NCBI GenBank assembly: GCA_031285405.1
Contig: JAITWH010000013.1
Location: 17,956-81,955, forward strand
Direction: 5' to 3'
Length of the DNA stretch: 64,000 bases
From: Alistipes sp.
GTDB taxonomy: Bacteria; Bacteroidota; Bacteroidia; Bacteroidales; Rikenellaceae
Shown: one piece after another, positions 62,355 to 64,000 of the stretch
Position numbering within the stretch: the stretch's first letter is position 1
How the letters are laid out: every line of letters begins with the position of its first letter
Notes under the pieces: model-generated
Database searches by the model: none
What the model saw: the letters and a program-made list of their open reading frames with translations, nothing else
What the model was told of the DNA's origin: nothing
Position numbers and translations under genes: made by a program

Positions 62355-64000
62355 TGGAACTTTTCATAGACAACAAAAAAGCCGACACCGCCCCTGATAG
62401 CGAGATAACACTCTCGCTAACAATGGGTTCGATCACCGACCCGTCACTTTCGCGCACCGGCTTCACCCGCACGCTGCGCCTGCCCGCGACGCCGACCAAC
62501 GACGCAATTTTCCGCCACGCCGCCGATCCCCACGGCCGCGACCGCTTCAACGCCACGTCGCACATCGGCCGCGTCGAACACGAGGGCTGCATCCTGATCG
62601 AGGGCCCGCTGACCCTGAGCCGCGCCGAACGCAGCCCCGAATGCGCCTCCGAGCGCACCCTCAAAAAAATGCCTATCTCTGCTCTAACAAGCACTTTTTC
62701 AGATATTTATGATTTTGACGAGACGCAAGGATTTTACGAAATCCACATCATCGGCGCGGCAAAAAGTTGGGTCGCCGGCGCGATGTCCCGCTCACTCTCC
62801 TCGCTGCCGATTCCCGCCGCCAACACCCCCGCGCACACAGAAAACACCCCCGCCCCCACCGCCACGTCCGCCGCATCCGCATCGAACAGCTCTGTCGTGA
62901 ACACCCCCGAGAGCGCCGCCCCCCTATGGAGCGCAACCTTAGACGCAAAGACGATCTCATCGAGTTGGACGTCCGGCCTGCCCAACAGCCCCGAAATACT
63001 CAACAACTCGGAGACCCCCGAGACCCCCGAAGCCCCCGAAGCCGAGGTCTCCGAAACCTCCGAGACCCCCGAAGCCGAGGTTTCCGAAACCCCCGAAATC
63101 CCCGAAACCTCCGAAGCCGAAGCCCCCGAGATCGCCGAAGCCAAGACCCCCGAATCCGAAGCCCCCGAAGCCCCCGAAGCCGAGACCCCCGAAGCCGAAG
63201 CCTCCGAGACCCCCAAGACCGCCCCAACCCCCGTAAGATTCCTCCCCGTATCTCGCCGCCCGATACGAAGGGACCACAGCTCGGGCAGGGCGCTCCCCGC
63301 GACCAAAGTGCTCACCAGCGACGACTACCACCCCTTCATCCACGTCGCAACGCTGCTCAGGGCCATTTTCGCGGCCGAGGGCTACCGCGTCGAGAGCTCG
63401 CTGATCGAGGGCTCGCAGTCCGCAAACCCGCTGAACGAAAACTCGCTGACCAACAGCCCGAAGGCCGAAACCCTGCTGAGCGAAAACTCGCGCATCGAGA
63501 GCTCGCAGTCCGAAAACCCGCAGTCCGAAAACCTGCAGCCCAACGACCCGAAGGCCGAAACCCTGCTGATCGAAGGCTCGCAAGTCGAGAGCACGCAGTC
63601 CGAAACCCCGCAGTCCGAAAACCAGCCGGCCAACAACCAGCAGCTCAAAACCCCGCGAGTCGAGACCCCGCAACTCCAACCCCCACACCCTAACCACCAA
63701 ATTTTCAAAGAGTTATACCTAAGCGGCCGCTACCCGACCCGCGACACCTCTCTCGCGCGCGACGAGATGGACTTCCTGGCGCGCCGCGGCACCCCGACCT
63801 CGGCCACGGCCAACTCGCTCGGCCGCGTCTACGCCGACCCCTACCGCATCGCCAACACCCTCGGAAACATAGTCACAGCCCCCTACACCCCCGAAAACAA
63901 CCCCCCAACCAACCCCCAAAACAACCCCGAAAACCCCACAACCAACCCCCCAAACAGCCCCGCAAACCCCACCCCCACCCCCCCCACCCCCCCCCCCCCC
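62355..64000 (+). CDS. Large repeat-expanded ORF, open to window end (3' truncated); candidate phage-like structural protein
   Basis: Manual translation from ATG 62355: MELFIDNKKADTAPDSEITLSLTMGSITDPSLSRTGFTRTLRLPATPTNDAIFRHAADPHGRDRFNATSHIGRVEHEGCILIEGPL..., no stop through base 64000; missing from the supplied ORF list. Confidence 0.8.

Follow-up and report, generated by a model that had tools for sequence, protein, structure and literature searches.

What does the long, repeat-laden open reading frame (ORF) at the right-hand end of a 64,000-nucleotide stretch of the genome of Alistipes sp. (GenBank assembly GCA_031285405.1, contig JAITWH010000013.1, positions 17,956 to 81,955 of the forward strand; hereafter the window) encode, and how did it come to be so enlarged? 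The reading that we favor, with a probability of roughly 0.7, is that this ORF is the first part of an intact gene for a protein resembling a phage tail tip or baseplate hub, that the gene belongs to a domesticated, vertically inherited module of the chromosome, and that it has been lengthened by a lineage-specific, genome-wide expansion of repeats.

The frame begins at an ATG at position 62354 of the plus strand and stays open to the last base of the window, 64000 (549 codons). The first-pass annotation, made from the letters of the window, had recognized this open frame and had placed its start one base too late, at 62355, from which translation yields a frame full of stops. No stop codon falls in the window because the contig (C12; 81,955 bases) ends, within a run of C, at the window's last base, which is also why the gene was missing from the list of ORFs, as had been surmised. 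Both expansions that had been described are present in the frame, as are the ordered block LTSDDYHPFIH... and the segment FKELYLSGRYPTRDTSLARDEMDFLARR; homology across 62354-64000 lies on the plus strand, and the antisense ORFs listed there are, as first stated, shadows of the gene. A profile of the protein family located the second half of the gene at the end of another contig of the same assembly, C42 (L062:6939-8552, minus strand), where it forms an open frame of 537 amino acids with zero stops, free of the stop or frameshift that the first-pass annotation had considered might lie just past the window. The C12 half covers family positions 1-267 and the C42 half positions 274-790, no further copy was found, and the genes flanking the gap between the two contigs match the contiguous gene order of congeners. 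Since the halves are complementary in position and synteny with congeners holds on both sides, continuity between C12 and C42 is strongly indicated, and the gene appears to be intact, cut by an assembly gap inside its fifth low-complexity tract.

The ordered segments of the protein have plentiful relatives in the Rikenellaceae, so the reservation that they might lack a homologue in any genome can be set aside. A sequence search with residues 1-150 returned 14 relatives of 773-823 amino acids, to which the window copy is 54-61% identical when aligned; a genome scan placed the family (approximately 790 amino acids) at 33 loci, almost all of them under titles naming genera of the Rikenellaceae, of which about 30 genomes carry it, and a family match was present in 25 of the 61 sampled genomes, every one within the Rikenellaceae. 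A structure model of the family built from 42 sequences reached a predicted local distance difference test (pLDDT) score of 89.3 and a predicted template modeling score (pTM) of 0.86; an earlier model from 14 sequences had been of too poor a quality for use. Fold searches produced strong matches to uncharacterized (predicted) phage proteins and weak matches to solved structures (template modeling score, TM-score, 0.12-0.33), many of the latter being proteins of tail tips or hubs; the top PDB matches include the lambda tail tip, VgrG, and Mu gp44. The protein also matched PHROG 38559 (E = 5e-4), and in the N-terminal region its similarity to PHROG 38559 and to gp46 of Nonlabens phage P12024L, which it further resembles in having phage structural neighbors, is 23-30%. 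These two matches, together with those to the folds of phage proteins, indicate homology to phage structural proteins. No match to the protein was obtained in Pfam, in a sequence search of the PDB, or in a single-protein scan of viral contigs, and only four relatives were found among 2.9 million viral contigs. A function like that of a tail tip or baseplate hub is a reasonable but unproven assignment.

Unlike gp46 and PHROG 38559, the gene is part of a module of the chromosome in which no terminase was found. The module comprises approximately ten genes in a fixed order, namely two small to medium genes, the tail-tip-like gene, a small gene, a head maturation protease, the capsid, another small gene, the portal, a further gene, and a holin-like gene, and is followed in Alistipes by an endolysin-like gene. 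In the present genome it spans positions 60489-64000 of the window and L062:1332-8552 of C42; the same gene order was observed in about 30 Rikenellaceae loci, and the module is patchy at the level of the family. To its right, ten loci carry an S4-domain gene, pth, and the bL25 gene (names assigned by sequence reading) in one of two orders, and the distances of capsid and portal track those of Pth and bL25 (r = 0.88-0.90 across 55 locus pairs, which are not independent). Because the module and the neighboring host genes diverge in step, the module looks vertically inherited and domesticated rather than like a recent prophage, and the ordinary prophage setting implied by the first-pass annotation gives way to a conserved chromosomal one. 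No terminase was detected among the module proteins scanned, and phrog_2, the one terminase family searched, gave nothing stronger than weak matches in 11 of the 12 genomes. We found no publications on the module in the open-licence literature. Gene transfer agents are likewise phage-structural genes that reside on chromosomes and appear to be vertically inherited; the module is like them in its gene content, its seemingly vertical inheritance, and its single chromosomal place, and unlike them in that no terminase was found and in that the evidence for it comes from genes, not from particles or DNA transfer.

The ordered segments of the window copy are split by repeat expansions, much as had been described from the letters, and the periodicity of the repeats is above chance. 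Alignment revealed four blocks of 28, 37, 83, and 95 amino acids and a terminal tract that are missing from the 14 relatives, although a short insert occupies the first site in one of them (P0011); the expansions are hence a feature of this genome's copy and not a trait of the protein family. Mapping onto the family model puts three of the four inserts within turns or loops, whereas the remaining one sits where a loop meets a helix. The interval 63391-63700 has a 15-nt period (autocorrelation 0.63 versus a codon-shuffle 99% limit of 0.41) and the interval 62983-63236 a 9-nt period (0.58 versus 0.51). The two described expansions, a Pro/Glu tract and a Glu/Asn/Ser tract, are both present in this genome only. 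Within inserts 3 and 4 the repeat copies resemble one another at 60-82% and, given this degeneracy, the tracts are either not fresh or were later altered by substitution.

The swelling is also genome-wide, affecting housekeeping genes and spacers, an extent that one window could not reveal. Counts for this genome were taken from a 548-kb sample of an assembly that is 82% complete, in 50 contigs, with 0.27% contamination; orthologues were counted in pairs of at least 45% identity, lower pairs being excluded (among them a pair of giant, repetitive proteins at 28%), and the initial multi-congener comparison of 28 gene groups was later enlarged. Across 123 orthologues, inserts of at least 8 amino acids numbered 63 in this genome (1251 amino acids, in 40 genes) versus 8 (97 amino acids) in the congener G004, and six further congeners, in smaller samples, leaned in the same direction. 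Tandem arrays occur at 77.1 per 100 kb, against 7.7, 5.0, 33.5, 13.0, 15.0, 22.5, and 13.1 in seven congeners; because the array density of the congener G007 (L069-L073, L011) is intermediate (33 per 100 kb, with period 7 the commonest), the excess may form a gradient across the genus. The median spacer separating adjacent orthologues measures 109 bp in this genome versus 17, and ATTTTCAATTTTCAA occurs 162 times versus 0-4 times in ten congeners. The arrays within genes are filtered by reading frame, as periods divisible by three account for 36 of the 42 arrays in orthologous genes and for 6 of the 50 in spacers, where period 7 prevails (32 of 50). Insert composition varies from gene to gene.

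One expansion process acting everywhere, and filtered by frame in genes, is the simplest reading of these data. Five in-frame blocks, mostly repetitive, would have been added at loops or turns in this lineage, generated by the elevated slippage or tandem duplication that would also put heptamer repeats into spacers chromosome-wide; which in-gene expansions survive would then depend on selection acting on frame and folded core, with frame-breaking outcomes removed. Slippage or tandem duplication as the generator is suggested by the array periods and by the joint involvement of spacers and genes, and the inserts themselves may be close to neutral. Our confidence is lower in the more general proposition that a still active, genome-wide repeat expansion, subject to filtering by frame and fold, is giving many conserved proteins disordered segments at the same time, which we put forward tentatively and think somewhat likelier to fail than to hold. 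Loss of mismatch repair was considered as a cause. We did not find mutL in this assembly (G000), although it was found in all ten congeners; the dnaJ-mutL-rhomboid stretch (congener reference L104:4830-11690) was not found as a whole block either and, since the neighboring dnaJ and rhomboid genes are missing together with mutL, an assembly gap is the likelier reason. The mutS1 gene is present with its motifs and looks intact.

Several observations weigh against our interpretation. The repeats are degenerate, unlike the products of fresh slippage, and insert 1 lacks clear repetitiveness; the low TM-scores of the best solved-structure matches leave the identity of the protein as a hub insecure; the C12-C42 join was deduced from contigs and not from reads; and the genome-wide counts derive from a 548-kb sample of an assembly 82% complete.

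Among the alternatives, the one that survives best, which we nonetheless consider improbable, is that the expansions are adaptive, with disordered linkers selected in the tail protein and others, for instance to extend or diversify binding surfaces. Several large inserts are indeed clustered in one structural protein, and a precedent exists in the archaeal Borg elements, the in-gene repeats of which have been proposed to be functional (PMC9879509); however, spacers and unrelated housekeeping genes are swollen too, and the composition of the inserts differs between genes. Borg elements are extrachromosomal, and their amino-acid tandem repeats are nearly perfect and A-rich (PMC9879509). The repeats described here are like them in being numerous and tandem in both genes and spacers, in having in-gene units that are multiples of three, in adding low-complexity, probably disordered segments, and in being nearly absent from the compared genomes, but are degenerate (60-82% in inserts 3 and 4), C/A- or G-rich, and situated on a bacterial chromosome, housekeeping genes included. 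Heptameric simple repeats are known from Xanthomonas, Nostoc, and other bacteria (PMC4692102) and parallel the concentration of period-7 arrays in our spacers, whereas several different heptamers occur here alongside arrays of 9, 12, and 15 nt within genes.

It is still less plausible that the inserts derive from mobile palindromic elements, copied into genes and translated in frame in the manner of Rickettsia, where such elements are interspersed and multiplied, some within genes without breaking the frame (PMC3767692, PMC10969869). Interspersed palindromes, shorter by eye than those of Rickettsia, have multiplied in the present genome as well, a few of them in frame within genes, but the inserts of this gene are local tandem repeats with 9-nt and 15-nt periods, and most other inserts lack repeat relatives in the sample of this genome. 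For the gene in question (g17), a palindromic origin was rejected, as its inserts have no palindromic core and match other simple repeats. Finally, an assembly or binning artefact can scarcely be credited, for although insert 5 is cut off by the contig end in a C homopolymer and the assembly is incomplete (82%) and fragmented (50 contigs), the inserts keep frame and flank a conserved scaffold, the gene arrays have multiple-of-three periods unlike those of spacers, contamination is 0.27%, and synteny with congeners holds on both sides.

Table 1. Features of the window bearing on the enlarged gene and its surroundings (positions are those of the window)
Feature	Position	Strand	Basis
First half (549 codons) of the tail-tip/hub-like gene	62354..64000	+	Open frame, contig end, family profile and alignment
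Insert 1, 28 amino acids, not obviously repetitive, beta-hairpin turn of the modeled fold	62636..62719	+	Alignment, model mapping
Insert 2, 37 amino acids, Ala/Pro/Thr/Ser-rich, in a loop	62816..62926	+	Alignment, model mapping
Insert 3, 83 amino acids, Pro/Glu/Thr/Ser repeats, 9-nt period, in a loop	62978..63226	+	Periodicity, model mapping
Insert 4, 95 amino acids, degenerate 15-nt (5-amino-acid) repeat, loop-helix boundary	63416..63700	+	Periodicity, model mapping
Insert 5 (approximate start), Pro/Asn-rich tract into the contig end, C homopolymer	63890..64000	+	Repeat analysis, contig end
Module gene g15, 145 amino acids, conserved upstream neighbor	60489..60926	+	Gene order in congeners
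Module gene g16, 358 amino acids, conserved, directly upstream, one insert of 17-19 amino acids missing in congeners	61114..62190	+	Congener comparison
Spacer with degenerate repeats, 27-nt autocorrelation 0.45 versus null 99% limit 0.38	59260..59560	.	Autocorrelation
Spacer of degenerate C/A-rich repeats separating module-proximal ORFs	60180..60488	.	Repeat analysis
Host gene, FtsX/LolE-type permease (named by eye), three Gly/Ser/Asp-rich inserts missing in congeners	54694..56319	+	Orthologue comparison
Host gene, UbiE/MenG-type methyltransferase (named by eye), inserts of 24 and 34 amino acids missing in congeners	56388..57362	+	Orthologue comparison

Further repeats were noted in the course of this work. 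Just upstream of the module lies an ORF of 152 amino acids with degenerate repeats (59719-60177), for which no homologue was found among the congener loci. The heptamers TTTTCAA and ATGAATC are read in frame inside genes of this genome, examples being an 888-amino-acid ORF (31770-34436, minus strand) and a 205-amino-acid ORF (50453-51070, minus strand) ending in TMKIMNHES. Short interspersed families, often chained, are present on many of its contigs, including the palindromes GCCGGAACGCCGGC and GCGGCAACGGCCGC and the TAGTG heptamer unit; these families are far rarer in, or absent from, the congener G004.

A module of capsid, portal, protease, and tail genes in a family of gut bacteria raises the question of what particle, if any, results. 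Conserved proteins swollen in frame by repeats are familiar from some eukaryotes and from Borg elements, but an array density 2 to 15 times that of congeners, combined with inserts in about one third of the sampled orthologues, is unusual for a bacterial chromosome. With the congeners, one of them of intermediate density, the cause can be tested directly by comparison and, if many conserved proteins are indeed gaining disordered segments at once through an expansion that is still active, this lineage would constitute a natural experiment on the origin of disordered protein regions.
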